Origin: a virus
Reading direction: 5' to 3' (one strand)
DNA: 24,551 nt
Virus record (IMG/VR): IMGVR_UViG_3300020177_000062
Coordinates: 1-24,551 of that record
Below are positions 1,386 to 24,009 of this stretch, piece by piece (positions within the stretch are counted from its first letter, which is position 1; each line of letters begins with the position of its first letter). The notes under the pieces were generated by a model. It saw only the letters and a list, made by a program, of their open reading frames with translations. It was not told where the DNA came from and ran no database searches. Position numbers and translations under genes: made by a program.

Positions 1386-1411
1386 TACAATAAATAAGTC
1401 ATTAATATGTA
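1386..1411 (-). promoter_or_regulatory. Candidate phage late promoter P7 (tail genes)
   Basis: The minus strand reads TACATA-N14-ATTGTA, ending 5 nt before the chaperone ATG. The ATTGTA box and the 14-nt spacing match the other candidate late promoters exactly; the upstream box matches AACAAA at four of six positions, so this is the weakest member of the set. It lies just downstream of a terminator hairpin. Confidence 0.5.
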
Positions 1412-1412
1412 T

Positions 1413-1441
1413 AAAAAGGAAAAGGTAGCACAAAGCCACCT
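1413..1441 (-). terminator. Intrinsic terminator
   Basis: On the minus strand, AGGTGGC and GCTACCT form a 7-bp stem (one G-U pair) around a 5-nt loop, followed by TTTTCCTTTTT. It ends the terminase-side unit, 30 nt after the stop of the 72-aa gene, and precedes the candidate tail promoter. The stem-loop is closely similar to the hairpin at 19571-19597. Confidence 0.65.
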
Positions 1442-1470
1442 AATCCCCAATTTAACCAAATGAAAAAATA

Positions 1471-1689
1471 TTAACTATTTAATATGAATCTTTTATATGC
1501 GTATTCGTAAGCAGTCTCTATTGCATCTACTAACTCTTTACTGTTCTGTGCATAGGTTATCTTTTGACTTCCTATATTTCTTTGACCTTTGTAGTCAATG
1601 TAAAGTGTTACATCAGAACCTTTATAACCACCTCGCTTTGTAGGTTTCTGTACAACGTAAATATCCTCGTACCAACACGCTTGTTTCAT
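1471..1689 (-). CDS. Hypothetical protein
   Basis: A 72-residue protein starting MKQACWYEDIYVVQKP if the ATG at 1689 is used, 1 nt after the stop of the upstream membrane-protein gene. An in-frame ATG at 1704 would add five residues (MEYHK) and overlap that gene; I prefer the shorter form for its spacing. The protein is rich in Tyr and Lys, with a 'TLYIDYKGQRNIGSQKITYAQNSKEL' type beta-rich centre and a helical C-terminus. I recognise no family. It is the last gene of the terminase unit before the terminator at 1413-1441. Confidence 0.6.
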   Translation of the reverse strand: MKQACWYEDIYVVQKPTKRGGYKGSDVTLYIDYKGQRNIGSQKITYAQNSKELVDAIETAYEYAYKRFILNS

Positions 1690-1690
1690 C

Positions 1691-1873
1691 TTATGATATT
1701 CCAAGAATCTTATCTGTTATTTCGTTTGCCCATAGCATAAAGTATAAAAATCCATACATTGATGCTAATCCAAATAATCCAAAGAGTAAAGAGTAGCCTA
1801 TGAACTTAATTGTGTTCTTGCGGTTCTCTTTCTTTGTTAAATTACTAATTAATACTTCTGTAAAATCTTCCAT
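1691..1873 (-). CDS. Small single-span membrane protein
   Basis: A 60-residue protein with a basic N-terminal third (residues 1-22, KKENRKN) followed by a long hydrophobic segment at about residues 24-48 (FIGYSLLFGLFGLASMYGFL), which should span the inner membrane. No conserved motif is recognised. It is downstream of the large terminase, followed at 1 nt by the next small gene, with 62 nt of very AT-rich sequence between it and the terminase stop. A role in membrane physiology or superinfection immunity is possible but unsupported. Confidence 0.6.
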   Translation of the reverse strand: MEDFTEVLISNLTKKENRKNTIKFIGYSLLFGLFGLASMYGFLYFMLWANEITDKILGIS

Positions 1874-1935
1874 AATTATTGATTTAATTAAACTTTGTTT
1901 ATACGAATATATAAACTTTTTTTAAACAATCCTAA

Positions 1936-3105
1936 TTAATAGATAAAATATTCTCCTTTATTAGGATTCTCTAATTGGTCAGTAAGAACATATCGTGCTG
2001 CATCTATACAGTCAGGATGTTCTCCTGTAGGTTTTTGTAGTGTGTTACCTTCTTTATCTTTTGCCCATACATATCCTTGTAGTTCTCTTTTTAAGTTCTT
2101 GCTTCTTGCAGTAACGTATATCTCGTTTTGATTGATGAGGTTAATACCATACACTATACTATCTCTGCCTTTGCTTACTCCATATACAGAGTGTCCATAT
2201 CCTTGTAACTCCGCTATAGATTTCGGTTCTGCTGAATCAGCAACAATGTTTTCTTTTATGTCCTGTTGTTGTAGGAAGCGACTTATATCTCTATTTAACA
2301 TTCCTTTCTTATAAAGAACCTCATCAAAGATATAAGCATCATTCCATTTATATAATGCAATCAAGGTAGTAGGGTCTACTGAATAACCAAAGTCCATACC
2401 ATAAGCCATTAGCCTTGCATCTTCAGGAAGTCTATCTATTTCTTTCCAATCAGGAATACATACACCTTCTAAACTACCTGTTTCTCCTAATCCATATACT
2501 TTCCACCAATTTGCCCAATACGTAGAAGTCTTTGCTTTCTCTTTAGCTTTCTCTATTTCTTTTACTATAGATTCAGGTAGTGCATTATTATCTTTGTAAG
2601 TAAGTGTGATGTAATCGGTGTCCTGCTTTCCTACCAATTCTTTGTCTACCCAAAACAAATTAGATGGATTGTAGTCTAACCATATAGTTCCGCTTGTTCT
2701 TACTGCTAATTGTGTATAAGCATCAAAAGGAACGTTGTTACACTCGTTAATGTATAAGTCTGTTCGTCTTGCACCTCTTAACTTATCAGGTTGGTCTGTA
2801 GAAAAGAACTCTATATAGCTACCATTTGAAAAGGTGTATTTTAAGGTACTTTTATTGAACTGACTATCACTATACCTATTGAGACCTTTTAGAATCGATA
2901 AGAAGTCCTTAATACAGCCCCTACGTAAGTGTGGAATGGATTCAGATACTACGCTTATTTCTTTTCCTTTGTTTCTTATAGCATAGTTAATCAATAAAGC
3001 AAGAATCGATATAGTCTTGGATGCTGATGTTCCACCTTTAACTATTCGTATCCTGCTTTTAAGTTTTTGTAGCTTTTTAAGTGCTATTGTTTTCTTAACC
3101 TGCAT
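1936..3105 (-). CDS. Terminase large subunit
   Basis: A 389-residue two-domain DNA packaging motor. The ATPase part has a Walker-A-like loop GGTSASKT (residues 24-31), with Ser/Ala in place of the usual Gly, as is common in PBSX/Terminase_3-type subunits, and a Walker B DLYINE (116-121) whose Glu is the likely catalytic base. The RNase H-like nuclease part shows acidic residues in MDFGYSVDPT (Asp238), VADSAEP (Asp290) and HPDCIDAARY (Asp365/Asp368). It would translocate DNA into proheads through the portal and cut the concatemer. It is short for the family but both domains look complete. The start overlaps the stop of the small subunit as TAATG, indicating coupled translation. Confidence 0.93.
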   Translation of the reverse strand: MQVKKTIALKKLQKLKSRIRIVKGGTSASKTISILALLINYAIRNKGKEISVVSESIPHLRRGCIKDFLSILKGLNRYSDSQFNKSTLKYTFSNGSYIEFFSTDQPDKLRGARRTDLYINECNNVPFDAYTQLAVRTSGTIWLDYNPSNLFWVDKELVGKQDTDYITLTYKDNNALPESIVKEIEKAKEKAKTSTYWANWWKVYGLGETGSLEGVCIPDWKEIDRLPEDARLMAYGMDFGYSVDPTTLIALYKWNDAYIFDEVLYKKGMLNRDISRFLQQQDIKENIVADSAEPKSIAELQGYGHSVYGVSKGRDSIVYGINLINQNEIYVTARSKNLKRELQGYVWAKDKEGNTLQKPTGEHPDCIDAARYVLTDQLENPNKGEYFIY

Positions 3106-3362
3106 TAATCAATATCCTCAATGAAAAGCGGTAAATCTTCATTGATTGTAATATCTTTTGTTTCTCTTGGTTTACCAAGATAGTAGTTTAAGTACAATTG
3201 AATCCACTTTAGTTCTCCTGATTCAACACCTTTCTTTAAGGCATCAAGTGCAGCATCTTCTAAAGGAGATAATCTTTCTACAAGTTTTATTTCTTCGCTT
3301 TTAGGTTTTCTTCCTGCGAACCCTTTTGTAGAATGACCACCATTATTTTTTCTACCATCCAT
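3105..3362 (-). CDS. Terminase small subunit-like protein
   Basis: An 85-residue protein directly before the large terminase, sharing a 1-nt TAATG overlap. The N-terminus is glycine- and lysine-rich and probably disordered (MDGRKNNGGHSTKGFAGRKP), followed by a helical core (PLEDAALDALKKGVESGEL, WIQLYLNYYLGKP) of the type seen in small DNA-packaging proteins of Bacteroidetes phages. The GRK(P) start followed by a YYLGKP(R/K) segment is recurrent in such proteins. The expected role is recognition of the packaging site and recruitment of the large subunit. It is short and lacks an obvious N-terminal helix-turn-helix, so the assignment rests on position and general resemblance. A candidate late promoter lies upstream at 3390-3415. 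Confidence 0.68.
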   Translation of the reverse strand: MDGRKNNGGHSTKGFAGRKPKSEEIKLVERLSPLEDAALDALKKGVESGELKWIQLYLNYYLGKPRETKDITINEDLPLFIEDID

Positions 3363-3389
3363 AATTAAAATAGATTAATTAATTAATTA

Positions 3390-3415
3390 TACAATAACTT
3401 TATTTACAAAGTGTT
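3390..3415 (-). promoter_or_regulatory. Candidate phage late promoter P6 (terminase genes)
   Basis: The minus strand reads AACACT-N14-ATTGTA, keeping the AAC core and exact spacing of the candidate late promoters. It begins at the end of the DnaA-like gene and lies 27 nt before the small terminase ATG, so this unit would have a real leader. The leader contains a short run of ATTA repeats (about 3374-3389). Confidence 0.6.
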
Positions 3416-3869
3416 AATTAATAAACCCATACTTCTGATAGAACTTCTCTCTACGAGTGTGCTTCTCTGTTATATCTTTTAGTGCATTACGTAGGTCGTT
3501 TATTATCTCTTCCTGCTCTTTTACCTGTTCTTTAAGCTGAACGTATTTAAGCACTATAGATTCATCTAATTCTATTACGTTATCTTTTTCATCTTCAAAG
3601 TTTCTTACTTTGTTTCGTAGGATTCGTAGATTGTTTTTTATCCTGTTGTCGTATTCTATCCAATTATTCAAAGACCTTATACCGTGCAATACAGAAGCGT
3701 GGTCTCTGTTTACCTGTTCGCCTATTTCTTCAAGGCTTAACTTTGTAAACTCTCTGCATAGCTTATAAAAGATTGCTCTTGCTTCTACATATTGTCTCTT
3801 ACGAGTATTTCTTTTAAGGTTTAATTCAAAGTAGTTATCTACTATTTCTTTAATCATCTGTTTGTTCAT
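3414..3869 (-). CDS. DnaA domain IV-like DNA-binding protein
   Basis: A 151-residue protein. Residues about 22-75 resemble the C-terminal DNA-binding domain of DnaA: a basic helix, then LCREFTKLSLEEIGEQ and the signature-like RDHASVLHGIRSL, corresponding to the DnaA box-binding 'GRDHTTVLHA' segment. The AAA+ domain of DnaA is absent. The C-terminal half is highly charged with a predicted coiled coil (LKYVQLKEQVKEQEEIINDL, roughly 103-135), which may mediate dimerisation. Stand-alone DnaA-IV-like proteins occur in phages and could act as an origin-binding factor or repressor. The start overlaps the upstream gene by 20 nt; an ATG four codons in is an alternative. It is the last gene of the replication block. 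Confidence 0.75.
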   Translation of the reverse strand: MNKQMIKEIVDNYFELNLKRNTRKRQYVEARAIFYKLCREFTKLSLEEIGEQVNRDHASVLHGIRSLNNWIEYDNRIKNNLRILRNKVRNFEDEKDNVIELDESIVLKYVQLKEQVKEQEEIINDLRNALKDITEKHTRREKFYQKYGFIN

Positions 3870-4065
3870 CTTGTATCTTATTTAGTAATTCGTTTAATGT
3901 CATATATCCTGATTCGTGTATTGCTTTTAATATTCCTGCACACGCTTCATATTCTTCTGCTTTTTCGTATAGTTCAATAGCTTCTTCAAGTTCTTGCAAA
4001 CCTCTGCCATTTGCTATATCTACTAAAGCAAGTAGATAAAATTCTTCTATTATATCTTTATTCAT
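3850..4065 (-). CDS. Hypothetical acidic helical protein
   Basis: A 71-residue acidic, almost fully helical protein with Glu/Ala/Leu-rich stretches (LQELEEAIELYEKAEEYEACAGIL) reminiscent of a single TPR-like helical hairpin. No catalytic motif is visible and no family is recognised. It overlaps the MazG-fusion gene by 8 nt at its start and the DnaA-like gene by 20 nt at its end, so it belongs to the same transcript. Base composition is closer to the surrounding phage genes than to the very AT-rich islet just upstream. Confidence 0.55.
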   Translation of the reverse strand: MNKDIIEEFYLLALVDIANGRGLQELEEAIELYEKAEEYEACAGILKAIHESGYMTLNELLNKIQDEQTDD

Positions 4066-4807
4066 TTTTTACAAAAGTGCCATTAACCATCTTACCTGTT
4101 CTATTTATAATAACATCATAAGCACTTTTAATACAATCTTCTATTTTTAAATTTTCAAGTTCCGCTAAATTAGTTAATACAACAACACAATCACCTATAG
4201 CATCAATTATTTCTTCTTTATCTTTTTTTAATAAAGCTTTAGCCAATTCCCCCGCTTCTTCTTGTAATTTTATATATTGTGTTTTACTATCACCTTTATC
4301 TAATATACCTTTTTCTTTAGCCCATTTTCGTATTAATTCAAAATTTGTATATTCTTTTTTTGACTCTACGTAATTGTATAAACTTTGATTATATATATAC
4401 ATACCAAAATTAGGATATTGACTTTTTGTTAATTTGCTTTTAATAAATTCTAATATGTCTTTGTTAATTTCAATTTCACCAAAATCAGGCAAATTAAGCA
4501 TTTTTAATTTTGAGTGATATTTATCAAAATCTTCTTTATTAAAAACTTTTGCAAAAGTTGTTGTTTCATTGGTTATATGTATTTTTTCCATTGTATTAAA
4601 ATTTAATTGATTATATGGAACTCTATCCCGTTTATACCCGTATTTATCTTGTAATTCAATTTCTTTATTTGAAGCATCATTAATATCTGTAGTTTTATAT
4701 AATATTTCATATTCACTTACTCCTTGTTCTTGAAGCCTTTCTTTTATTCTATGTGTACACCCAATTTTATTTGTTCTTGGTATTCTGTATACATAATAAG
4801 TTGTCAT
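4058..4807 (-). CDS. GIY-YIG-like domain fused to MazG-like pyrophosphohydrolase
   Basis: A 249-residue two-part protein. Residues 1-65 (YYVYRIPRTNKIGCTHRIKERL, then NKEIELQDKYGY) resemble the small GIY-YIG/T5orf172-type nuclease fold of phages: paired Y-x-Y and KIG strands, a basic helix and a late Glu. Residues 158-249 form a MazG-like all-alpha NTP pyrophosphohydrolase, with EEAGE (183-187) and EIIDAIGD (199-206) providing the Glu/Asp residues that bind Mg2+, and a closing INRTGKMVNGTFVK. MazG-family enzymes hydrolyse NTPs or dNTPs to monophosphates. Next to a ThyA-family enzyme, a dCTP- or dUTP-directed activity supplying dNMP is attractive but unproven. It overlaps the upstream ThyA-like gene by 4 nt and shares its very AT-rich composition. 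Confidence 0.78.
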   Translation of the reverse strand: MTTYYVYRIPRTNKIGCTHRIKERLQEQGVSEYEILYKTTDINDASNKEIELQDKYGYKRDRVPYNQLNFNTMEKIHITNETTTFAKVFNKEDFDKYHSKLKMLNLPDFGEIEINKDILEFIKSKLTKSQYPNFGMYIYNQSLYNYVESKKEYTNFELIRKWAKEKGILDKGDSKTQYIKLQEEAGELAKALLKKDKEEIIDAIGDCVVVLTNLAELENLKIEDCIKSAYDVIINRTGKMVNGTFVKNE

Positions 4808-5559
4808 ATAGCTAAAGGTGCTTTAATTAATTTATTTGATTTATAATTATCTAAATAATAATTATTATAATTTCCTTTTAATTGAGGTAATTCATAAGTA
4901 TTACTTTCTAAATATAAATTAACTTGTTCAATATGATTCATATAAATGTGTGCATCAGCTAAATTTAAACCTAATTCATATGGCATTAAATTGCATTGTT
5001 TAGATATTTCAATTAAAAATAAAGCTCCAAAAATTATATCATAAGGTAAACCTAAAAATAAATCTGAACTTCTAAAGTGCATTACTAAATTTAATTTGTT
5101 ATTACTTCTTACAAAATTAAGTTGAGTATAACAACAAGGTAAAGCTTGCTCTTTTAAATCAGATGGATTCCATAAAGTAATAATAGCTCGCCGCGTGTTG
5201 TTTTTAATTTCATTAATGCAATATTTAATTTGATTTATAGAATTATTATAATTTTTAATTTGATATCCATATACTTTCCCAAGCTGACCATTAATTGCAA
5301 ATTCATTCCACCAATTTATATTATTATCTTGTAAATATTTTAAATCGGTACGACCTTCATATATCCATTTAAACTCTGCTAATGCTTTTTTAAAGTATAT
5401 TTTTTTACCTGTTAATATAGGAAAACCATTATTTAATTTAATATTAATACTTTGATTAAATAATTTTAAAGTATTTATACTTGTGCGGTTTTTATTTTCT
5501 TCTCCATATTGCAAAACACGCAATAACAAATCTTTATATGTTTGTTCAAAATTATTCAT
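4804..5559 (-). CDS. ThyA-family pyrimidine (hydroxy)methylase, possibly dCMP-specific
   Basis: A full-length 251-residue thymidylate synthase-fold enzyme. Compared with E. coli ThyA numbering it keeps Glu58 (Glu62 here), Arg126/127 (Arg123/124), Trp80 (Trp84), the catalytic Cys146 (Cys142 in PCCYTQ), Arg166-x-x-Asp169 (Arg163/Asp166), the dNMP-binding HIY (204-206) and a C-terminal KAPLAI. Two changes matter: Asn177, which selects dUMP, aligns without gaps to Asp174 (FLGLPYDI), and His147 is replaced by Cys143. Asp at the Asn177 position is the hallmark of T4 dCMP hydroxymethylase, and N229D in L. casei ThyA confers dCMP methylation. A dCMP methylase or hydroxymethylase is therefore as likely as a true thymidylate synthase. 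It overlaps both MazG-like neighbours by 4-8 nt. Confidence 0.88.
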   Translation of the reverse strand: MNNFEQTYKDLLLRVLQYGEENKNRTSINTLKLFNQSINIKLNNGFPILTGKKIYFKKALAEFKWIYEGRTDLKYLQDNNINWWNEFAINGQLGKVYGYQIKNYNNSINQIKYCINEIKNNTRRAIITLWNPSDLKEQALPCCYTQLNFVRSNNKLNLVMHFRSSDLFLGLPYDIIFGALFLIEISKQCNLMPYELGLNLADAHIYMNHIEQVNLYLESNTYELPQLKGNYNNYYLDNYKSNKLIKAPLAI

Positions 5560-5815
5560 TATTTTTAAAATTATTTAAAGCGGCTATGTAACCAACCGCA
5601 TCTAATAAAGTATCTTCTTTTAAATTATATGCCATTCTGCTTATTTTTAAAGCAATCATACATTTATAAAAATCTTCTGTTGTAATTTTTTTATTACATA
5701 GTTCAGACGCTACTATTGCCGCTTTCTCCATTGATTCTTTAAATGGACCATATTCTCTTTCTTTTTCTTCAGAACGAAGATTAATTATTTTATTAGCTTC
5801 TTCTAATATATTCAT
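5552..5815 (-). CDS. MazG-like / DUF6378-type all-alpha protein
   Basis: An 87-residue helical protein with EEKEREYGPFKESMEKAA near the start and TTEDFYKCMIALKISRMAYN followed by DTLLDAVGYIAAL near the end. This layout (KDYG...F, then LKxxRxxxN, then D...D.xGY) is that of small phage proteins of the DUF6378 type, thought to share the MazG-like pyrophosphohydrolase fold; I rely on memory of the pattern. It probably contributes to dNTP pool control together with the ThyA-family enzyme that it overlaps by 8 nt. Its ATG overlaps the exonuclease stop by 4 nt. Very AT-rich, like the two downstream genes. Confidence 0.68.
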   Translation of the reverse strand: MNILEEANKIINLRSEEKEREYGPFKESMEKAAIVASELCNKKITTEDFYKCMIALKISRMAYNLKEDTLLDAVGYIAALNNFKNNE

Positions 5816-6579
5816 AATATTCCTCTCATTACATATTGATCTAAATCGTTTTCTTCTTGAAAAAAGTACTTATAGTTGTCTACTGCTTGTCTGAATTTCT
5901 GTTCGCCTCTTGCTAAAAATTCATCACTCACATCAAAGATTCCTATATCAGTACTTGCTTTGTCAATCACTAAAAAGATAAACTTATTTTTCTTAAACAA
6001 TTTAAGATACAACCACGCTTGAAGGTCGTAAGAATATTTATCGCAAGAGTAACGAAATGAATTTAGGTCTTGACTTGTTTTCAGGTCAATGATTGTGTCT
6101 CCTTGAATTATATCTGCTTTACCTCTAAATGGTAAGTCCTCTATCATTTCTACTGCAGGGACTTCAAACTCTGATTTGTTTAATAGTTTGAGTGCTGCTT
6201 CATTTCTTAATACTGCATCTGCTAATCTTTCTGCTGCGCTTCTTTCTTTAGTCAAAAACACTTCTCCATACTTTGCTTTAGCATCTTTGTATAGGTTAGT
6301 GTTCTTTGTGGAAGCATCTACAAAATGTAACTTATCTACTTTATGAGGTTCAAGTATCATCCAATGTACTAATTTACCTGCCGCTAATGCAGGACTATCT
6401 CCGTTAGGGTCTCCGTACTTTAGAATGTTTCTATAAGTCTTTGGACTTTTAAGTAGTGTTTTAAGAGATGAACTACTTAAAGCATACTGTCCAAGATGTT
6501 TGTAGTAGAATGAATCATCATAAGCCATTCCTACTATTTCTTCTTTGAGAAATGTTTCTCCGTTTAATAGTGTTATCAT
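5812..6579 (-). CDS. PD-(D/E)XK exonuclease, RecE/exonuclease VIII-like
   Basis: A 255-residue protein if started at the ATG at 6579, whose ATGA overlaps the stop of the upstream 50-aa gene; the longer open frame to 6633 only reads through that gene in another phase. The middle contains LAAGKLVHWMILEP, then FRGKADII and TIIDLKTSQD (Asp and D-x-K of the nuclease core) and YDLQAWLYLKL, the QxxxY helix of RecB/exonuclease VIII-like nucleases. It probably resects double-stranded ends to produce ssDNA for the ERF annealing protein encoded at 10285-10794, forming a two-component recombination system. The only GATC that I could find in the window is near its 3' end (5838-5841). Confidence 0.85.
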   Translation of the reverse strand: MITLLNGETFLKEEIVGMAYDDSFYYKHLGQYALSSSSLKTLLKSPKTYRNILKYGDPNGDSPALAAGKLVHWMILEPHKVDKLHFVDASTKNTNLYKDAKAKYGEVFLTKERSAAERLADAVLRNEAALKLLNKSEFEVPAVEMIEDLPFRGKADIIQGDTIIDLKTSQDLNSFRYSCDKYSYDLQAWLYLKLFKKNKFIFLVIDKASTDIGIFDVSDEFLARGEQKFRQAVDNYKYFFQEENDLDQYVMRGIL

Positions 6580-6728
6580 AACCTTGTAATTTCGTTTTGT
6601 TCTTCTTTTCTCCTGTTCAGTTCCTGCTGACATCTGTGAGCGTAACCATCCAAGAATTGATGTGTGTTAATTACTCTCTGTAATTCGTGGTCTGTCATTG
6701 ACCTGTAGTAAAGTTCTTCGTATGTCAT
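6576..6728 (-). CDS. Small hypothetical protein
   Basis: A 50-residue protein starting MTYEELYYRSMTDHELQRV and ending NRRKEEQNEITRL. It is charged and helical, with no membrane segment and no recognised family. Its TGA overlaps the exonuclease start as ATGA, and this overlap is what sets the exonuclease start. A host-like TATATTTG box lies 17 nt upstream. Confidence 0.6.
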   Translation of the reverse strand: MTYEELYYRSMTDHELQRVINTHQFLDGYAHRCQQELNRRKEEQNEITRL

Positions 6729-6744
6729 AATTAATATATTTATT

Positions 6745-6752
6745 CAAATATA
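6745..6752 (-). promoter_or_regulatory. Possible Bacteroidetes-type -7 box
   Basis: The minus strand reads TATATTTG, which fits the Bacteroidetes primary-sigma -7 consensus TAnnTTTG, 17 nt before the ATG of the 50-aa gene. I do not see a convincing -33 TTTG at the usual distance, so this is tentative. Confidence 0.25.
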
Positions 6753-6757
6753 AACAA

Positions 6758-6886
6758 TTATTTAACATCTTCATCTTTTGGGAAAACTTTTTTTTCTAAT
6801 TTTTCTATTTTATTTAAGGCAACTACTAACGCTTGTTGAGTTAACTTTATATCGTGTTGCATCTTAATTAATTTAGCTTCTTTCAT
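6758..6886 (-). CDS. Small coiled-coil protein
   Basis: A 42-residue protein starting MKEAKLIKMQHDIKLTQQAL, almost entirely helical with heptad-like spacing through residues 5-35 (LNKIEKLEKKVF) and an acidic C-terminus. It overlaps the end of the upstream 48-aa gene by 14 nt. No function can be assigned. Confidence 0.5.
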   Translation of the reverse strand: MKEAKLIKMQHDIKLTQQALVVALNKIEKLEKKVFPKDEDVK

Positions 6887-7019
6887 CCCTATAGATTTGT
6901 GAGCACACTGCAAAGCGTTGTTCTTTGTCTTTAAACTCTGTTACCATATTGGAATCAATCATACATCTTTGTATGAACTCCTTTTGTGTTTCTGTTGCTT
7001 TTGGTTTAGGTAGTGGCAT
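6873..7019 (-). CDS. Small conserved phage protein, 'FIQRCM' type
   Basis: A 48-residue protein starting MPLPKPKATETQKEFIQRCM and ending EQRFAVCSQIYRDERS. The pattern PKPxxxExxxxFIxRCM...(E/D)xxQRxAVC is one I have seen repeatedly in short phage proteins and at the ends of phage head proteins, with two conserved Cys residues (Cys19 and Cys40 here); no function is known to me. The ATG overlaps the stop of the upstream MazG-like gene as TAATG. Confidence 0.6.
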   Translation of the reverse strand: MPLPKPKATETQKEFIQRCMIDSNMVTEFKDKEQRFAVCSQIYRDERS

Positions 7020-7279
7020 TACTTCTGTTGTTTTAGTTTCTCTATATATAATGTTGCATCCATAAGTTCCTCTTGTAAATGATTTAAGAACTGATAGAAT
7101 CCATCAGGAGAATCGTGCAATGTAGTACCGTATTTTAATATGCCGTCTCTACTTCTTGCTCTCATCCTGTTTATTACCTTTTCCACTATAGGGTCTTTAG
7201 GTAAATAATTATAGGTTGAATCTGTGGTATAGCCTCCTGCTTCCATCATTTCCTCCCACTTTTTTATACTATCACTCAT
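7019..7279 (-). CDS. MazG-like nucleotide pyrophosphohydrolase-related protein
   Basis: An 86-residue protein whose second half follows a MazG-like pattern: VINRMRARSRDGILKYGTTL, then FLNHLQEELMDATLYIEKL, corresponding to the EExxD metal-binding helix and the following helix. Small phage proteins with 'KYGTTL...HxxEELxDAxLYxEKL' are often assigned to a MazG-like superfamily. It would be the third protein of this general type in the window, after those at 4058-4807 and 5552-5815, suggesting heavy investment in controlling dNTP pools. Start and stop both overlap neighbouring small genes. Confidence 0.6.
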   Translation of the reverse strand: MSDSIKKWEEMMEAGGYTTDSTYNYLPKDPIVEKVINRMRARSRDGILKYGTTLHDSPDGFYQFLNHLQEELMDATLYIEKLKQQK

Positions 7280-7350
7280 TTTTTAAATATTTGATATACT
7301 AACCACTCTATAATCCTAAACATAACATATCCTACAAATAAATCATCCAT
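7276..7350 (-). CDS. Possible 24-aa hydrophobic microprotein
   Basis: A tiny frame of 24 residues (MDDLFVGYVMFRIIEWLVYQ, then IFKK) that precisely bridges two genes: its ATG overlaps the upstream stop, and its TGA overlaps the next ATG as ATGA. It is hydrophobic or amphipathic and could insert in or lie on the membrane. The tight overlaps at both ends favour a real gene, but the length makes this uncertain. Confidence 0.4.
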   Translation of the reverse strand: MDDLFVGYVMFRIIEWLVYQIFKK

Positions 7351-7645: not shown

Positions 7646-7660
7646 TTATTTTATACTTTA

Positions 7661-8068
7661 TTATAAATATTGATTGTAAACTGCTACCAAATCCTTATAC
7701 ACTACTTTAGCAAAACTACAAGGTGTACATTCTACTTTGGTTTTAAATATTCTTTCGTATATAATCTTGTACGTCTCTTGCTCATCAGGAGTAAACTTAT
7801 TCTTTTTAGTGTCTACTGCCATTTTAATTAAATCAAACTCTTCTTCTGTCAAGCATTCAGGTTTCTTATATCTGAACACTTGGTTTAGTTTCTCTTTTCT
7901 TTCATCACATCCACAATCTTCCCCTGCTAAAAACTTAACCGCTTTCTTTATTCCTGTAGCTTTTGTAATCTTTTCTACTGTGTCTCCAAGTCCTTCACTT
8001 GCTTCAGCGTGTTTTTTTTTCCACTCTTTGTATTCTTTTGAGAGTTTGTCTCCTTTGAAATCTTTCAT
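7661..8068 (-). CDS. Cys-containing conserved phage protein of unknown function
   Basis: A 135-residue, Lys-rich soluble protein. A helical N-terminus (KEWKKKHAEASEGLGDTVEKITKATG in part) precedes a short Cys cluster at CGCDERK (about residues 52-58) and a second pair at CTPC (about 114-117), an arrangement suggestive of metal binding. The 'GLGDTVEKITKATGIKKAV' and 'GCDERKEKLN' segments are ones I associate with Bacteroidetes phage replication regions, without known function. Its start overlaps the stop of the sigma-like gene as ATGA, so the two are likely co-translated and perhaps functionally linked. Confidence 0.6.
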   Translation of the reverse strand: MKDFKGDKLSKEYKEWKKKHAEASEGLGDTVEKITKATGIKKAVKFLAGEDCGCDERKEKLNQVFRYKKPECLTEEEFDLIKMAVDTKKNKFTPDEQETYKIIYERIFKTKVECTPCSFAKVVYKDLVAVYNQYL

Positions 8069-8613
8069 AACTTATCGTAATCTTTATTTATATAATCTTC
8101 CCAATCTTCTTTAAACTTTTCGTTTAGTTCATTTTTAGCGTGTTTAAGCGTATTAAATATACTTACCCAACTTATATTAGTCTCTTTAGCTATTCCCCTT
8201 ATAGAGAGTTCTGTATCCCTGTACAAAGTAAATAACTTTTTTTCATACCATCTCCAACTATCTATGTGGTTATCTATCATAGTACATATCTTATTGAAGG
8301 CTATTTGTTCATCCATTTGCGAATCGTTTGGAATTTGGATGGTAATTTGGTCATCATCAAGAGAAACTTTATCAATCTTTCTTTTACTATTATAATATTG
8401 GTAATACAAAGAACGCAAAGTAAAAAACAAATACCCGCGACTAACAACACCATTTCTAATAACCTTGCTTTCATCTGCATATTTATGTAGTGTCAAATAA
8501 CACTCTTGTACTATATCTTCAGCGTAGTCATACTCGCCAAAACTTTTTACTATATTGACCCATTCCTTATGCCTTTCAGCAACTATAGTGAGCCATTGTG
8601 TGGGTTTATCCAT
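8065..8613 (-). CDS. Phage-encoded sigma-70/ECF-like sigma factor
   Basis: A 182-residue protein with the layout of a compact two-domain sigma factor. Region-2-like helices sit at about residues 25-75 (DYAEDIVQECYLTLHKY, then GYLFFTLRSLYYQYYN), and a region-4-like helix-turn-helix sits near the C-terminus (ELSIRGIAKETNISWVSIFNTLKHAKNEL, about 130-165). Between them is an acidic linker. There is no sigma-1.1 or full region 3, as in ECF or late-gene sigma factors. It would direct host RNA polymerase to phage promoters. Seven copies of an AACAAA-N14-ATTGTA element upstream of virion genes are obvious candidate targets, and the AAC core resembles the -35 elements of ECF promoters. The link is inference. 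It overlaps both neighbours. Confidence 0.72.
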   Translation of the reverse strand: MDKPTQWLTIVAERHKEWVNIVKSFGEYDYAEDIVQECYLTLHKYADESKVIRNGVVSRGYLFFTLRSLYYQYYNSKRKIDKVSLDDDQITIQIPNDSQMDEQIAFNKICTMIDNHIDSWRWYEKKLFTLYRDTELSIRGIAKETNISWVSIFNTLKHAKNELNEKFKEDWEDYINKDYDKL

Positions 8614-11702: not shown

Positions 11703-11710
11703 CAAAGTTA
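11703..11710 (-). promoter_or_regulatory. Candidate host-type early promoter (TAnnTTTG)
   Basis: The minus strand reads TAACTTTG, a perfect TAnnTTTG -7 box, in the longest gene-free interval of this half of the window (11632-11759), 71 nt before the ATG of the first gene of the replication block. The -33 region is AT-rich (TTTACATCTTTC) without a clear TTTG. It is a plausible early promoter. Confidence 0.42.
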
Positions 11711-16861: not shown

Positions 16862-16961
16862 ATATAGTACAATTACTTTTTTTCGTTTTTGTTATATAAG
16901 CCAAATACTGTTTTAGCTTATTTATATTTTCCTGTTTTGGTTTGTATTTATTTACTCCCAT
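16848..16961 (-). CDS. Possible small basic protein
   Basis: A 37-residue Lys-rich frame (MGVNKYKPKQENINKLKQYL, ending CTIYGKH). Its ATG overlaps the stop of the connector gene as TAATG and its end overlaps the next gene by 14 nt. It has 11 Lys in 37 residues. The candidate promoter at 16868-16893 lies inside it, so part of this frame may be regulatory sequence rather than gene. Confidence 0.4.
   Translation of the reverse strand: MGVNKYKPKQENINKLKQYLAYITKTKKSNCTIYGKH
16868..16893 (-). promoter_or_regulatory. Candidate phage late promoter P5 (appendage/lysis genes)
   Basis: The minus strand reads AACAAA-N14-ATTGTA exactly, ending 6 nt before the ATG of the 67-aa gene. A TATA precedes the first box, as in several other copies. 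Confidence 0.7.
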
Positions 16962-19189: not shown

Positions 19190-19533
19190 TATAAGGTAAT
19201 AAATTCGTTATCTGTATCATTAAATATATAATCACTATCGTTTATGGTATAAGCCATTAAATCGGTTTGGTTGGTGCAGAACATTTTATCTTTAAATATA
19301 ACTTCTGCTCCATCCTTAATAGTAAGTACGTAACTAATATCCTCTTTTAAGGGAAACACCGCAGTATAAGTATTATGATATAGATGTTCCGCTATTGCAG
19401 TAGTATCTACATTGTACACTTCCTGATTCGTTGTTTCGTTTACTATCGTTACATTATAACTATCTCCACTTGTAAACCTACGTGGTATAATATTGATAGT
19501 TTGCTCACTTGCACTTTCTAATAATACAATCAT
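19189..19533 (-). CDS. Hypothetical head/tail region protein
   Basis: A 114-residue beta-rich protein starting MIVLLESASEQTINIIPRRF. The open frame extends upstream to 19602, but that would put a terminator hairpin and its T-tract inside the gene; the ATG at 19533, preceded at 5 nt by the candidate late promoter, is clearly better. Repeated strand-like segments (YNVTIVNETTNQEVY, YTAVFPLKEDISYVLTIKDG) suggest a small beta sandwich. No family is recognised with confidence; comparable genes sit beside portal genes in Bacteroidetes phages. Its stop overlaps the portal start. Confidence 0.6.
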   Translation of the reverse strand: MIVLLESASEQTINIIPRRFTSGDSYNVTIVNETTNQEVYNVDTTAIAEHLYHNTYTAVFPLKEDISYVLTIKDGAEVIFKDKMFCTNQTDLMAYTINDSDYIFNDTDNEFITL

Positions 19534-19538
19534 ATTTA

Positions 19539-19564
19539 TACAATAAAAAAACTTTAATTTTGTT
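19539..19564 (-). promoter_or_regulatory. Candidate phage late promoter P4 (portal unit)
   Basis: The minus strand reads AACAAA-N14-ATTGTA exactly, 5 nt before the ATG at 19533. The first box is embedded in a perfect 16-bp palindrome, TTTTGTTATAACAAAA (19558-19573), directly after the terminator stem at 19575-19597. Confidence 0.72.
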
Positions 19565-19570
19565 ATAACA

Positions 19571-19597
19571 AAAAAAGGGCAGCATATAGCCACCCTT
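19571..19597 (-). terminator. Intrinsic terminator after tail-tube gene
   Basis: On the minus strand AAGGGTGGC and GCTGCCCTT form a 9-bp stem (two G-U pairs) around TATAT, followed by a run of six T residues beginning within the stem end. It ends the capsid/tail-tube transcript and precedes the candidate portal-unit promoter. Confidence 0.75.
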
Positions 19598-19619
19598 CTC
19601 AAATCAAATGAAACTCGGT

Positions 19620-20168
19620 TTAAGAGTTAGTTCCTTCTGTAACGGTTACAGTAGCTGATGCCATTCCATCAAATGGGTCAGCAGCAGTTGGACTGTCTAC
19701 AAAGTTAGCAGGTTTTAATTCCTGTGCAGAAAGAGTTAAAGTATATCCACTTAAATCTCCCATAGCTGCTCCTGTAGAAATTGTACCTCCTGTTACCTCT
19801 GCTCCGTGTTCTAATCCCATAACGAATACGTTTCCGTTATAATCTTCTACTGCAACGTGAGGTCTACCGTATGCTAATAGCTTTAATTCTTTGTTATCCT
19901 CTTTGCTTAATTTTTTAAGTGTAAGGTTTAGAGTTTGTTCAAAGAAAGTCGTACCGTTTTCTCTTGAAGAAGTAATAGTTTGCTCAAAGCTACTATTTCC
20001 TTTCAATTCATATTTGTAAGCAGTAAAAGTTCCTGTCATATCAGTAATCTCATCGTCTGTTTGCGTTACCGTTCCGTAATCTCCGAAATCAGTAAAGTAA
20101 ATCGCTTTTAGACCACCAACTACGTCTTTACAGGGTTCTTTTCTACCTTTAGTTAAATCACAAGCCAT
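19620..20168 (-). CDS. Major tail (tube) protein
   Basis: A 182-residue protein starting MACDLTKGRKEPCKDVVGGL. The features KGRKEPCKD, GGLKAIYFTDFGDYG, KYELKGNSSFEQTITSSREN, FFEQTLNLTLKKL, LLAYGRPHVAVEDYNGNVFVMG and TGGTISTGAAMGDLSGYTL match my recollection of the abundant tail-tube protein of Bacteroidetes siphophages. It would polymerise around the tape-measure protein to make the tail tube. It lies between two terminator hairpins; no candidate late promoter is visible before its ATG, so expression probably depends on read-through from the capsid unit. Confidence 0.75.
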   Translation of the reverse strand: MACDLTKGRKEPCKDVVGGLKAIYFTDFGDYGTVTQTDDEITDMTGTFTAYKYELKGNSSFEQTITSSRENGTTFFEQTLNLTLKKLSKEDNKELKLLAYGRPHVAVEDYNGNVFVMGLEHGAEVTGGTISTGAAMGDLSGYTLTLSAQELKPANFVDSPTAADPFDGMASATVTVTEGTNS

Positions 20169-20181
20169 ATTTTATTGTATT

Positions 20182-20221
20182 AAAAAAGGGTAGGTAGGCA
20201 CATACTTGGCTTACCCACCCT
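20182..20221 (-). terminator. Terminator/attenuator between capsid and tail-tube genes
   Basis: On the minus strand AGGGTGGGTA pairs with TACCTACCCT (10 bp, one G-U) around a 14-nt loop, followed by six T residues, 29 nt after the end of the capsid extension frame and 14 nt before the tail-tube ATG. It may be a partial terminator setting the capsid-to-tail-protein ratio. Confidence 0.7.
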
Positions 20222-20249
20222 ATTAAGTTAGTTAATTGATTATTGTTTA

Positions 20250-20354
20250 TTATGGGTTATTAGCTGTGTTAGCAATACCATAAGTTACGATATCTTCAAC
20301 AATACCATACTGAACACCTGCGGTAAATCTCATTACCACACGAATGTTGTCAGA
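20250..20354 (-). other. Frame-shifted C-terminal end of the major capsid protein
   Basis: In the +1 frame directly after the capsid stop, 34 codons continue (SDNIRVVMRFTAGVQYGIVE, then DIVTYGI...) to a TAA at 20250. This is clearly the conserved C-terminus of this capsid family ('RFTAGVQYG..EDIVTYG'). Joining Gly282 (GGG, 20358-20356) to TCT (20354-20352) by skipping one base gives ...DMSGSDNIRV..., a continuous 316-residue product. Either programmed +1 frameshifting or a one-base G-run error or mutation explains this; see findings. Confidence 0.8.
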
Positions 20355-21201
20355 ACCCGCTCATATCTAATACTTTAACTTCGTTGTGGTCAGCTAATAA
20401 GCCTGTACCAAAGAAAAGGTTAGATTTTTCTGCTGCAATTGCATCATTGTCAGCAAGACCGTTAGCTACGAATAATTTAACACCATCAAAAGTAAGTGAA
20501 CCGTTATTCCACCATTGAGTACCCATAGCGTTTGTACCATTAGCACCTAATCCTGATGCACCAAATCCACCTAATGCTCTTACATAGGCTCTTGCAATGT
20601 TTTGAGAAACGTAAATGTTTAAGTCCTCGCTTCCATAAAGTGTAGAAGGAATAGCATCTACGATTTTACCTAATTCAGTAATTACGTTAGCAGCAGTTAC
20701 AGTAGTACCTGCAATTTCGTTTGCTACAGGTAAATCAGCATCAGCACCTAATAAAGTAGATAACCCATTAAACTGTCCTGATGTAGCAGTATTTCCTGCC
20801 CAAATTGATTGCTCTGTTCTCTGTGCTACTTTAGCTGCTACGTGAGCAATTAAGAAATCAGAGAATGAAGGAGGTAGGTCGTGATGTGCTGAATAGCCCA
20901 TTTGTACTGCTTCCCAATCAGAGATAAAGTCTTTCTTACAAAGTTGTAAGTTCACTTGCTGAAATTCAGGTTGTAAAACTCTTTCAGTAAGTGTTACTGT
21001 AGAAGTAGCTGTAAAGTCGCAAGATGCATCTTTTACGATATCATCAGTAGATACTTTTTTAATTACTTCTTTAAATTTAACGTTAGGTTTAACTGTAATC
21101 CCTCCGTTTTCAATAGTTGAAGCACTTAATAGAGCAGCAGAGATATACTGTCCTGCAAACTCTCCTGCATAAGTACTTGTAATAGATGTAGTTGTTGCCA
21201 T
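20350..21201 (-). CDS. Major capsid protein (HK97 fold-like)
   Basis: The main frame encodes 283 residues starting MATTTSITSTYAGEFAGQYI. Segments such as VTLTERVLQPEFQQVNLQLCKKDFI, FLIAHVAAKVAQRTEQSIW and LNIYVSQNIARAYVRAL, followed by GLFVANGL-type and NLFFGTGL sequences near the C-terminus, fit major capsid proteins of Bacteroidetes siphophages, which adopt the HK97 fold. It builds the icosahedral shell after cleavage by the XkdF-like protease. It follows the acidic scaffold-like gene by 10 nt. The frame stops at TGA (20352-20350), just short of a well-conserved C-terminal strand that continues in the +1 frame, so the full product is likely 316 residues. Confidence 0.85.
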   Translation of the reverse strand: MATTTSITSTYAGEFAGQYISAALLSASTIENGGITVKPNVKFKEVIKKVSTDDIVKDASCDFTATSTVTLTERVLQPEFQQVNLQLCKKDFISDWEAVQMGYSAHHDLPPSFSDFLIAHVAAKVAQRTEQSIWAGNTATSGQFNGLSTLLGADADLPVANEIAGTTVTAANVITELGKIVDAIPSTLYGSEDLNIYVSQNIARAYVRALGGFGASGLGANGTNAMGTQWWNNGSLTFDGVKLFVANGLADNDAIAAEKSNLFFGTGLLADHNEVKVLDMSGF

Positions 21202-21211
21202 TTTTTATTTG

Positions 21212-21823
21212 TTATTTTTTAATGTTAGCAATTTTAGATAATACTCTATCTGCAGTAGTCATTTCTCTCTTTTGACCATACAGATTAATATTTGTTTTGG
21301 TTTCCTTTTCAGGATTGTGAGTTACTTTAGCTACAGGCTCTTCAATAGAAAGTTCAACTTCTTCTTTCACTTCTTCAGTTACCTCTTCACTTAATTCCTC
21401 TTTGGTTTCTTCAACTTCTTCAGAACTCATCTCTTCTTTAGGTTCAAGCATAGCTTTGATTTCTTCAATCATTTCTTTAACCTCTGCAAGTTCTTCTTTA
21501 GTTGCATATCCCATTTCTTCTTCCTCTGCAGCTTCCACTTCCTCTTCAGGTGCTTTTTCTTCTGCTGCTCCTATAGATGCAATAATACCTTCTTCTTCGA
21601 CTTTGAGTATCTCTCCATCTTCAAGAGTGTATTCGCCTACAGGTAGTGCTACTTTTTCATCTTCTGTTACGATGAACACTTCACTTCCTGCAGCGAAATC
21701 TTCACTTTCAATAACAGTTCCGTTTTCCAAAGTAGCTTGTGCTAATTTTACTTCTTGGGTTTCTTCATTTAGTTCCACTCCAAGAACTTCTTTTACTTTG
21801 TTTAACATATCTGTCGCTTTCAT
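21212..21823 (-). CDS. Acidic scaffold-like head protein
   Basis: A 203-residue protein of very low complexity in its middle: residues about 95-165 are dominated by Glu (EEVEAAEEEEMGYATKEELA, then EEVEETKEELSEEVTEEV), predicted as a highly acidic, partly coiled-coil helix. The N-terminus (MKATDMLNKVKEVLGVELNE) precedes a beta-like region with ENGTVIESEDFAAGSEVFIV and LEDGEIL repeats. The C-terminus turns basic. Such acidic proteins immediately upstream of the capsid gene usually act as scaffolds or capsid assembly cofactors. It has its own candidate late promoter (21830-21855). Confidence 0.65.
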   Translation of the reverse strand: MKATDMLNKVKEVLGVELNEETQEVKLAQATLENGTVIESEDFAAGSEVFIVTEDEKVALPVGEYTLEDGEILKVEEEGIIASIGAAEEKAPEEEVEAAEEEEMGYATKEELAEVKEMIEEIKAMLEPKEEMSSEEVEETKEELSEEVTEEVKEEVELSIEEPVAKVTHNPEKETKTNINLYGQKREMTTADRVLSKIANIKK

Positions 21824-21829
21824 ATTTAT

Positions 21830-21855
21830 TACAATAAATTAGTATTGTGTTTGTT
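21830..21855 (-). promoter_or_regulatory. Candidate phage late promoter P3 (scaffold/capsid unit)
   Basis: The minus strand reads AACAAA-N14-ATTGTA exactly, 6 nt before the scaffold-like ATG, in the short gap after the coiled-coil gene. Confidence 0.72.
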
Positions 21856-21861
21856 GTGTTT

Positions 21862-22209
21862 TTACACCTTCTTTAATTTTCTAATAATTAAATCTAAACC
21901 TGCTGCAGCGGAAACTGCATCCCTATAATTTTTATCTTGACGAAGTGTATTTAATAAATCCCCTCCTAATTCTTTAAATTTTTGAAATGTTTTGGTCTTT
22001 ACAGCAGCGTGTTTATCATATAGATTTTGTGCTTCTTTTTTTATTTGTTCTGCTTTTTTTATTGTGTTTTCATATTCATCAATAAATTTTATAGCTTCTT
22101 TGTAAAGTTTATCGGCTTTATTGTTTTCTTTTATTAGGTCATCCATTAAACCTAACTCAACTTTCTCTTTAGCTAACTTGGCAATTATCTTTTGTACGCT
22201 TGGTTTCAT
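21862..22209 (-). CDS. Coiled-coil head-region protein
   Basis: A 115-residue Lys-rich, almost wholly helical protein (MKPSVQKIIAKLAKEKVELG; then KADKLYKEAIKFIDEYENTIKKAEQIKKEAQNL in heptads, about residues 30-70). No family is recognised. Its position between the protease and scaffold-like genes, with its own candidate late promoter, suggests a head-assembly accessory or second scaffold component. Base composition is more AT-rich than its neighbours. Confidence 0.6.
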   Translation of the reverse strand: MKPSVQKIIAKLAKEKVELGLMDDLIKENNKADKLYKEAIKFIDEYENTIKKAEQIKKEAQNLYDKHAAVKTKTFQKFKELGGDLLNTLRQDKNYRDAVSAAAGLDLIIRKLKKV

Positions 22210-22224
22210 AAAAGTATTTTTTTA

Positions 22225-22250
22225 TACAATTAATTATTTTACAATTTGTT
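22225..22250 (-). promoter_or_regulatory. Candidate phage late promoter P2
   Basis: The minus strand reads AACAAA-N14-ATTGTA exactly, 15 nt before the ATG of the coiled-coil protein. It lies 7 nt after the end of the Cys-rich small gene. A short A/T leader separates it from the start, so this transcript would not be leaderless. Confidence 0.7.
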
Positions 22251-22256
22251 ATATTT

Positions 22257-22403
22257 TTACTCTGTTCCTGTAATATTTCCTATACCCTGTGCTTGAAAAC
22301 TTCCATCACAACACTTACGAGAATAAGTCTTACCATCTTTACACAAACAACCTCTTCTATCGTTTTGTGGACTTGGGTTTCTATCAGTTCTTTCTTTTCT
22401 CAT
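22257..22403 (-). CDS. Small Cys-rich protein
   Basis: A 48-residue protein starting MRKERTDRNPSPQNDRRGCL, then CKDGKTYSRKCCDGSFQAQG. Four Cys residues (CLC and CC) and 'CCDGSxQAQGIG' suggest a tiny metal-binding or disulfide-stabilised fold; I recall similar short proteins between head genes of Bacteroidetes phages, without known function. The ATG overlaps the stop of the upstream gene as TAATG. Confidence 0.65.
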   Translation of the reverse strand: MRKERTDRNPSPQNDRRGCLCKDGKTYSRKCCDGSFQAQGIGNITGTE

Positions 22404-23041
22404 TAGCTAAAGTCTGCGTTTTGTGTTCTTTGAATAAAGTAAATAATATCCCATATTTTAGCAGTACCTCCATTAGAGGTTATTTTCCAATCTGTACCAT
22501 TTGTTACAAAGTCGCTATCGGTATAATATTGGAACATTTGATGGAAGTCGTGTGCTACGTCATTTCCTTTAGGAAAGTTTACATCACTCCTTATTCTATC
22601 GTATGGTGTTCCATTCCCACCTTCAAAGTGTAGACTCAAATAGGTTTGGTTAGCATTAGCTGCTGAACATCTAAACACTACTGTTATTTGATAAACATCA
22701 TTTTCGTTTATAGCTAACACCTTTTGTGTTGAACCATTATAAAAAACTATTGAGGGATGACTCCTGTAAATTGCTCCTGCATTGTTAGGCAGTATAACCT
22801 CAACACCATCCGCTAACGATAACTTATTAGAAGAGGTGTAGGTAGTATCATCATATCTTGCCCAACCATTTACAGTTATAACATTTTGAGGATATACTAC
22901 TACGTTATTATTATTATGACCCATATATAATGCATCCGTAGTATGTAACATTGCACCATCTTCAATATTGACTGCATCAACTTCTGTTTGATTGGTGTGT
23001 TCTACGTGAACTTTGTAAGCAGTATTATATATGTTACTCAT
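22403..23041 (-). CDS. Probable virion surface / decoration protein
   Basis: A 212-residue beta-rich protein starting MSNIYNTAYKVHVEHTNQTE. Asn/Thr-rich segments and alternating strands (NVVVYPQNVITVNGWARYDD, VYQITVVFRCSAANANQTYLSLHFEG, FHQMFQYYTDSDF) look like a jelly-roll or carbohydrate-binding-like sandwich typical of virion decorations or fibres. No catalytic motif is seen. It overlaps the protease gene by 8 nt and lies among head genes, so a head fibre or decoration protein is the most likely reading; this is inference. Confidence 0.5.
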   Translation of the reverse strand: MSNIYNTAYKVHVEHTNQTEVDAVNIEDGAMLHTTDALYMGHNNNNVVVYPQNVITVNGWARYDDTTYTSSNKLSLADGVEVILPNNAGAIYRSHPSIVFYNGSTQKVLAINENDVYQITVVFRCSAANANQTYLSLHFEGGNGTPYDRIRSDVNFPKGNDVAHDFHQMFQYYTDSDFVTNGTDWKITSNGGTAKIWDIIYFIQRTQNADFS

Positions 23042-23978
23042 TCTCTAAACTCTTGATTTTAGATTCCGCCCAAGACTTTGCACTCTTTCCTCCCCACAAA
23101 AGATAAGATATATAACCACAATCAGTAGTTTCCCCCTTCTCGTAATACACTTCCGCTCTTGATAGGTAGCTGAACATTCTTTTGATTGTTTCTACACTTA
23201 CAGGTTTTCCCTGTGCAAGTTGTTGCGCTCTTACTTTTCCTACTTGAGTTGCACATTTATTGTTTACCTTCTCGTTTAGTTCTAATCCTCTTTTTGCATT
23301 GTTCTTTACTGAATCAGGATAATCTGAATAAGATTCCATTTCAGTTCTTTGCCCACTCTTTAGCCTTTTATCTTTTTTGATAATGCCTTTAATTTGACCT
23401 AACAAATATTCTGCTTCCTCTTCCTCTATTTGAGCAAGTTCATCTTTTATGGTTTTGTCTTTAGGTCTTTCAGCTTTATCTGCAAAATATCCTTCTATAG
23501 AGAATCCTTTTACCTTACCTGTTTTAACGTAGTTATTCCAAACGTCATCATTAAGAACTTTCATAGATACCATCCACGTTCCAAGAGGCATATCCATATC
23601 GTACATTTTGGTCTTGTCTTTTTCTTTATCCTCAACAATCCAAGATTCAACAACACTTAAACCTGTAAGAGGCATTTGGTGTTCTAATGTACTTTTGTTT
23701 TGGTTTCCGTTTATAAAGAATAACTCACTTGCTTTTCTTACCGTGTCTCTTGAGAAATAAATGTAATATTCGTTATCTTCATTTCTACGGTAGATAGGTT
23801 TATTAGGTATTAAAGCAGCACCCATTAAGATACGCTTTTCCTTATCTACTTCTGCAAGTTTAAACTCTTGGTTTTTAAGTGCTATAAAATCTTCCTCAAT
23901 AGCAGGAGACTCAACGACTGAAATTGCTTCAATCCCTATAGCATCTTCTTCATCTAAAATAAGTTCTACTATGTTCAT
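23034..23978 (-). CDS. Prohead protease, XkdF-like, with C-terminal domain
   Basis: A 314-residue protein. Residues 1-165 resemble the XkdF/putative serine protease of phage heads: AIGIEAISVVESPAIEEDFI, KRILMGAALIPNKPIYRRNE, TLEHQMPLTGLSVVESWIVE (His and Ser candidates for catalysis) and GTWMVSMKVLNDDVWNNYVK...GFSIEGYF. After a charged linker, residues about 215-312 form a separate helical domain (YPDSVKNNAKRGLELNEKVN, KCATQVGKVRAQQLAQGKPVS, GYISYLLWGGKSAKSWAESK) often found with phage head proteases or as a stand-alone head gene. It would cleave scaffold and capsid N-termini during maturation. It is preceded at 5 nt by a candidate late promoter. Confidence 0.82.
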   Translation of the reverse strand: MNIVELILDEEDAIGIEAISVVESPAIEEDFIALKNQEFKLAEVDKEKRILMGAALIPNKPIYRRNEDNEYYIYFSRDTVRKASELFFINGNQNKSTLEHQMPLTGLSVVESWIVEDKEKDKTKMYDMDMPLGTWMVSMKVLNDDVWNNYVKTGKVKGFSIEGYFADKAERPKDKTIKDELAQIEEEEAEYLLGQIKGIIKKDKRLKSGQRTEMESYSDYPDSVKNNAKRGLELNEKVNNKCATQVGKVRAQQLAQGKPVSVETIKRMFSYLSRAEVYYEKGETTDCGYISYLLWGGKSAKSWAESKIKSLENE

Positions 23979-23983
23979 ATTAA

Positions 23984-24009
23984 TACAATAGTTTTTTATC
24001 TAATTTGTT
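23984..24009 (-). promoter_or_regulatory. Candidate phage late promoter P1 (head genes)
   Basis: The minus strand reads AACAAA-N14-ATTGTA exactly, 5 nt before the protease ATG. Its first box overlaps the TAA stop of the upstream tape-measure-like gene, showing how tightly the element is packed. Confidence 0.72.

Follow-up and report, generated by a model that had tools for sequence, protein, structure and literature searches.

The IMG/VR virus record IMGVR_UViG_3300020177_000062, a complete record of 24,551 bases with nearly all of its genes on the minus strand (hereafter, the window), carries a bipartite element, AACAAA-N14-ATTGTA, ahead of its virion and packaging genes, and the question raised by this arrangement is what the element does and what reads it. 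A sequence-only reading of the same DNA had proposed a promoter, which the comparative data support; that reading missed a phage sigma factor gene in the replication module, the change of the second box with the sigma lineage, and a host-type TAACTTTG promoter. We consider it very likely that the element serves a phage lineage as its late promoter and is read by a phage sigma factor of the extracytoplasmic function (ECF) type on the host core RNA polymerase.

The seven sites claimed for the window were all found, with the letters and positions given for them, on the minus strand. Five are exact copies, located at 23984 to 24009, 5 nt upstream of the ATG of the protease gene; at 22225 to 22250, 15 nt upstream of the ATG of a gene for a coiled-coil protein of 115 residues (g22209); at 21830 to 21855, 6 nt from a scaffold-like gene; at 19539 to 19564, 5 nt from the ATG of the portal unit (19533); and at 16868 to 16893, 6 nt from the ATG of a 67-residue gene (g16861) and the appendage unit. 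The two imperfect copies are AACACT..ATTGTA at 3390 to 3415, 27 nt from the ATG of the terminase small subunit (TerS) unit, and TACATA..ATTGTA at 1386 to 1411, 5 nt from that of the tail-chaperone unit. The distance between the second box and the ATG is 5 or 6 nt in five of the seven cases, as had been stated.

A pattern search confirmed five exact copies on the minus strand and none on the plus strand. Exact matches at all other spacers from 0 to 39 were absent except for one at spacer 8 (plus strand) and one at spacer 28 (minus strand), so that the excess is confined to spacer 14 and to the gene strand. Markov models of order 1 to 3 predicted 0.025 to 0.05 exact matches per window, with a maximum of one in 400 runs, and the probability of at least five exact copies, computed from the counts of both hexamers, is approximately 3e-10. 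When three mismatches were allowed, the 104 matches did not exceed those in shuffled sequences (95 +/- 11). Only close matches are therefore informative, and loose matching was not used.

Scanning viral contigs with the sigma, portal and terminase proteins yielded 238 related loci, with 217 exact copies of the element on the gene strand and one on the opposite strand. At the portal loci, 175 matches have spacer 14, and no other spacer from 6 to 24 has more than 13. The 212 non-redundant sites with at most one mismatch define the consensus TAACAAA-N12-TTATTGTA, and the first ATG follows 5 or 6 nt after the element in 102 of them. With the extended pattern run over the whole collection, 80 of 114 loci among the matches listed encode relatives of window proteins; in those 80 loci, again among the matches listed, 97 of 99 sites are on the gene strand and 68 have an ATG at 5 nt. 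Outside the lineage, the 34 sites among the matches listed show no such preference. A blastn search against cultured phages returned no relative, the element is absent from Flavobacterium phage Fpv5, whose terminase is related, and neither sigma nor motif was found in the 28-kb contig G009. The hosts are presumably flavobacteria, an identity that rests on the relationship with the Nonlabens phage P12024S described below.

Orthologous genes were surveyed in 20 long related contigs and the window, counting sites within two mismatches, with denominators that include P12024S, which has another second box. Sites precede the protease gene in 21 genomes, all with the ATG at 5 nt, the portal unit in 20/20, the scaffold-like gene in 19/20, g16861 in 10/11, g22209 in 4/4, TerS in 19/21 and the tail chaperone in 19/22, with the ATG at 5 nt in 18 of these 19. 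The comparison with related phages thus places the element ahead of the late-gene orthologues, and the two imperfect copies of the window are real, being conserved at orthologous genes. No site within two mismatches was found at the orthologues of the helicase, SSB, NinG, sigma, major capsid protein, portal and terminase large subunit genes in the same set, and the interior of late units has essentially none. The claim that the element precedes virion and packaging genes and no replication genes holds essentially, with few exceptions: single matches at the DnaA-C gene, g4807 and g16651, the last of which is itself a late gene, and a weak two-mismatch form near Erf, mostly AACAAT..ATTTTA, in 8 genomes. 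This form, AACAAT-N14-ATTTTA, is conserved in those 8 relatives (e.g., G049 and G039) and lies 13 nt ahead of an ATG; it is possibly a weak or degenerate promoter. Given their two mismatches and non-consensus base, the ATTTTA matches were excluded from the promoter count.

The element had also been said to differ from the host consensus of Bacteroidetes, TAnnTTTG. Inspection of all seven late sites showed no such -7 box, and TAHHTTTG occurs within 130 nt upstream in 0 to 2 of approximately 20 genomes per late-unit orthologue, versus 13 of 16 at the first early gene. This gene opens the replication module and has the conserved box TAHHTTTGGTGG, of the TAHHTTTG type, ahead of it. The corresponding site in the window, TAACTTTG at 11703 to 11710 on the minus strand, is a -7 box of the host sigma-A type followed by GTGG and precedes the first gene of the module (11631). 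Its sequence suggests an early promoter of the host type, with a conserved GTGG in addition.

Proximity to the ATG in most units might instead suggest that the element acts as RNA, in the leader of late mRNAs, and serves translation or stability. The ATG distance nevertheless ranges from 5 to 31 nt across genomes (24 to 31 nt in most genomes for TerS; mostly 5 to 7 nt, with some of 14 to 19 nt, for the other elements), yet the internal spacer is constant at 14. Terminators end immediately upstream of two of the promoters: an intrinsic terminator of 12 pairs at 19572 to 19600 (minus strand) ends directly upstream of the portal-unit promoter, and one of 7 pairs at 1423 to 1441 (minus strand) lies directly upstream of the tail-chaperone promoter. 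In addition, the second box tracks a residue of the phage sigma, as shown below. A role as an RNA element is therefore highly improbable.

If the element is a late promoter, its distance to the ATG bears on the transcripts. With the covarying base of the second box (see below) taken as -11, the start-site geometry of Mycobacterium tuberculosis SigL points to element positions 31 to 33, where the first letter of the ATG is 32 or 33; in phage 7-11, late transcripts start 6 to 9 nt from the element (PMC8948821). From this geometry and these distances, transcription of five of the seven late units is predicted to start at the A of the ATG or within 1 to 2 nt of it, giving leaderless mRNAs, while the TerS and g22209 units would have short leaders of 27 and 15 nt, respectively. 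The earlier claim that the transcripts of five units would be leaderless or nearly so is thus supported by geometry. In Flavobacterium psychrophilum, 5.5% of mRNAs are leaderless (PMC9723704), and in Flavobacterium johnsoniae leaders exceed 10 nt in 87% of predicted transcripts (PMC6847099).

We propose the product of the open reading frame at 8065 to 8613 (minus strand), a protein of 182 residues encoded within the replication module, as the factor that probably reads the element, on the grounds of homology, predicted fold and covariation. With regions 2 and 4 and neither region 1.1 nor region 3, it has the size and layout of ECF (group 4) sigma factors (approximately 160 to 220 residues). 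A profile search of the PDB gave SigR as the best match (E = 1e-4), followed at weaker E values by SigH, SigL and Escherichia coli sigmaE. The sigma70-ECF model TIGR02937 was matched by 13 of 13 family members scanned (best 4e-10), and the window protein matched a PHROG sigma factor family (E = 9e-5). The AlphaFold model comprises helical domains at residues 6 to 77 and 97 to 175 joined by a disordered linker. Foldseek matches at the top of the list were all ECF sigma factors (best E = 1.4e-3); the structural alignment to E. coli sigmaE (VIA) gave a Z of 10.1, with a high root-mean-square deviation (rmsd) caused by domain placement, and region 4 alone aligned to 2h27 with a Z of 8.8 and an rmsd of 2.8.

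The sigma was found in 23 of 24 long related contigs; in the remaining one, the 24-kb record G058, the element is present and no sigma was found. No match was obtained by tblastn against cultured phages, and a scan of a genome collection returned only weak ECF matches (22 to 33%), mostly in Sphingomonas and in metagenome-assembled genomes of Bacteroidales, with no prophage or host copy. In G017, a sigma match at 27466 to 27879 (minus strand) contains an in-frame TAG; a short reading frame, an error or stop recoding could explain it.

The second box changes between lineages. P12024S (NC_018271), a cultured Nonlabens phage, belongs to the same lineage by its portal protein (37.5% identity) and encodes a Sigma-70 region 2 protein, gp33, that is 27% identical to the window sigma over 138 residues. 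Its late element is AACAAA-N14-CGTTAA, at the same distance from the ATG as in the window lineage; its record has no annotated promoter. In its clade, AACAAA and CGTTA are separated by 14 nt in 18 cases and by 13 nt in one, with no occurrence at any other spacer or on the other strand, and ATTGTA is absent. More distant contigs have (A/T)ACAA(A/T) followed after 13 or 14 nt by CGTT or TGTT boxes, and most of the longest contigs in this distant set carry a sigma relative. In the window, P12024S, G025 and G033, pairs of this kind came out as the top motif of an unbiased dyad discovery. In G025 (L360), most of the sites at 4011, 5033, 10311, 11097 and 13381 (minus strand) have the form AACAAA-like-N13-TGTTTTAAAATAAAA, and the ATG lies farther off by several nt. 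Short leaders would thus be expected on its late mRNAs, and a leaderless start is not a feature of every family member.

These variants bear on the possibility that the element is an operator for a dimeric regulator, with the true promoter elsewhere. ACAA and TTGT are complementary and lie about two helical turns apart, forming an inverted repeat, ACAA-N16-TTGT. The symmetry, however, does not reach the conserved bases that flank the boxes (T at 0; TT at 19 and 20), spacers of 13 and 14 are found in different lineages, and P12024S (CGTTA) and a group of genomes with ATTATA as second box retain the left box and lose the symmetry. With the symmetry broken in these genomes, the dyad-operator reading was rejected; we regard it as very unlikely.

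A promoter read by a host sigma, ECF or primary, with the phage sigma serving another purpose, would have a precedent in the SM6 class of ECF promoters in F. psychrophilum, whose CGT -10 box resembles the CGTT of P12024S (PMC9723704). The box of the window, though, contains neither CGT nor TAnnTTTG, the phage sigma almost always co-occurs with the element, and the second box varies with the phage sigma lineage and with a single residue of that protein. We thus find a host sigma unlikely as the reader.

This residue lies at position 59 of the window sigma. The relationship was first noticed in two genomes, G049 and G051, which have ATTATA at all late promoters and a Gln or Lys instead of Arg59 in their sigma, and it was then tested on further genomes. 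The prediction held in 16 of 17 that have a readable residue. Among genomes chosen by their ATTATA pattern, residue 59 is Glu, Asn, Gln, Lys or Asp, except in G079 and in two mixed genomes, all three of which have Arg. At orthologous late genes, the fourth base of the second box is G at 104 sites and A at 5 in Arg59 genomes, and A at 56 sites, T at 1 and G at 0 in the others. By genome the table reads 22:0 against 0:15, for which Fisher values ignore kinship and are descriptive only. Residue 59 is also the sigma column that best separates the genomes (38/39; next best, 34/39). The set chosen by ATTATA is biased in the base and not in the residue, and a set chosen by sigma alone served as a check: Arg59 loci have G at 80 sites, A at 9 and T at 14, the T cases probably being the ATTTTA sites near Erf, and non-Arg loci have A at 8 and G at 0. 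Across the sigma, portal, terminase and capsid trees, 3 to 5 well-supported independent pairs differ at residue 59, all in the predicted direction. Like the element, its placement, strand, spacer and conservation, the homology of the sigma and the switch of the second box, this covariation is read from the sequences themselves.

In a profile alignment, Arg59 corresponds to residue 66 of SigL and falls inside loop L3 (residues 56 to 67), the part of SigL in which the flipped -11 base is pocketed (PMC6372665). Should the covarying base be -11, the second box would run A-14 T-13 T-12 G-11 T-10 A-9 and that of P12024S C-14 G-13 T-12 T-11, which fits the CG preference described for ECF sigma factors (PMC6372665).

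From these data we infer sigma binding, temporal order and start sites as follows. The host RNA polymerase would first transcribe the replication module from the host-type promoter at 11710. Because its gene lies in this module, the sigma would accumulate and redirect the host core polymerase to the seven late promoters. In each of these, (T)AACAAA would be the -35 box and TTATTGTA the -10 box, the two named hexamers being 14 nt apart. Region 4 would recognize AACAAA, and region 2, with the specificity loop that carries Arg59, would recognize the -10 box, G-11 being the flipped "master" base in ECF numbering. Transcription would then begin at or next to the ATG in the five units named above.

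Several observations weigh against this proposal. In G079 (L685), the single exception to the covariation, an Arg59 sigma, the only one of its kind, accompanies two exact sites that are both ATTATA, and with 3 to 5 independent pairs a sign test cannot reach p<0.05. The -35 box remains AACAAA in P12024S although the region-4 helix differs, and dyad discovery in the distant sigma carriers G052 and G055 gave no convincing motif. The window sigma scores below the curated cut-offs of Pfam and NCBIfam, a database criterion and not a biological one (15.1 versus 24 bits and 14.2 versus 25.7 bits), as does the first family member in the TIGR02937 scan (32.7 versus 42.9 bits); judged by sequence, it is a remote rather than a typical ECF sigma. 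Confidence between the two domains of its model is moderate (predicted template modeling score, 0.42), and the related contigs are uncultured fragments.

Phage ECF-type late sigma factors with promoters of their own are already known from phiEco32 and 7-11 (PMC4331800, PMC8948821). By sequence, the window shares with them a phage ECF-type sigma and a separate class of late promoters, with TAHHTTTG ahead of its replication module. In Salmonella phage 7-11, the ECF-type sigma SaPh711_gp47 serves bipartite late promoters and early genes are transcribed from host sigma promoters, as proposed here. Its late promoters, GTAAtg-(16)-aCTA, are unlike the window element in boxes and spacing, the virus is of another lineage with a gammaproteobacterial host, and the available part of the source describes neither leaderless output nor a natural switch of recognition (PMC8948821). 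The window sigma and gp47 are distantly related (21% over 154 residues; E = 2e-4 in a single comparison). In Escherichia phage phiEco32, the ECF-type sigma gp36 likewise turns on late genes, its middle and late promoters having starts 6 to 8 nt downstream of the element; the system differs by a single-element promoter, tAATGTAtA, without a -35 box, and by the lack of region 4 homology in gp36 (PMC4331800, PMC8948821).

Among bacterial regulators, M. tuberculosis SigL and E. coli sigmaE are similar two-domain factors with T-12 G-11 in the -10 box, and L3 reads the -11 base, a G for SigL. SigL reads G-11 through Asp60, whereas the covarying Arg59 occupies the position of SigL residue 66 (PMC6372665). 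The promoters of the flavobacterial primary sigma (TTTG and TAnnTTTG) resemble that of the phage replication module, and the late element fits neither these nor SM6 (PMC6847099, PMC9723704).

The sequence-only reading knew of no earlier description. This stands for the element itself: in open-licence literature, no paper was found on it or on an ECF-type late sigma in Bacteroidota phages. It does not extend to the kind of system, which has been described for phiEco32 and 7-11 (PMC8948821). The case is apparently the first ECF-type late sigma system for Bacteroidota phages; what is new at the level of sequence is the lineage and its boxes, the predicted leaderless output and the natural switch of recognition.

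The analysis names both partners of a probable late switch in an abundant, mostly uncultured group of flavobacterial phages. Leaderless late mRNAs, as predicted here, in a phylum without Shine-Dalgarno sites, where leaderless mRNAs are rare, would show in a natural setting how Bacteroidota ribosomes initiate on such messages. The covariation of residue 59 and the base over several switches, one amino acid and one base pair, offers a natural series, of a rare kind, on how ECF factors recognize the -10 box. The sigma/promoter pairs are also candidates for orthogonal expression parts in Bacteroidota, where promoters are unlike those in E. coli. A broader proposal has, in our estimate, an even chance of being correct: that throughout this Bacteroidota phage lineage the late transcriptome is mostly leaderless and driven by an ECF sigma whose recognition code has switched repeatedly, from Arg59 with G-11 to non-Arg with A-11, and further to T-11 in the CGTT lineages. 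Within a genome, all late promoters would change together, so that related phages would stay regulatorily separate despite recombination of late genes.

Other genes of the window deserve mention. Over 21212 to 23978 (minus strand), the first half of PHROG 24921 matches the protease and its second half the scaffold-like protein; because each half has its match, other phages probably have the two as a single fused gene, while other genes and a promoter intervene in the window. The gene at 4058 to 4807 (minus strand) encodes a protein with a T5orf172 (GIY-YIG-like) region and a MazG domain and adjoins that of thymidylate synthase (4804 to 5559). Just upstream of the terminase promoter, the gene at 3414 to 3869 (minus strand) encodes a protein that contains the DNA-binding domain found at the C terminus of DnaA (Pfam; E = 2e-15).

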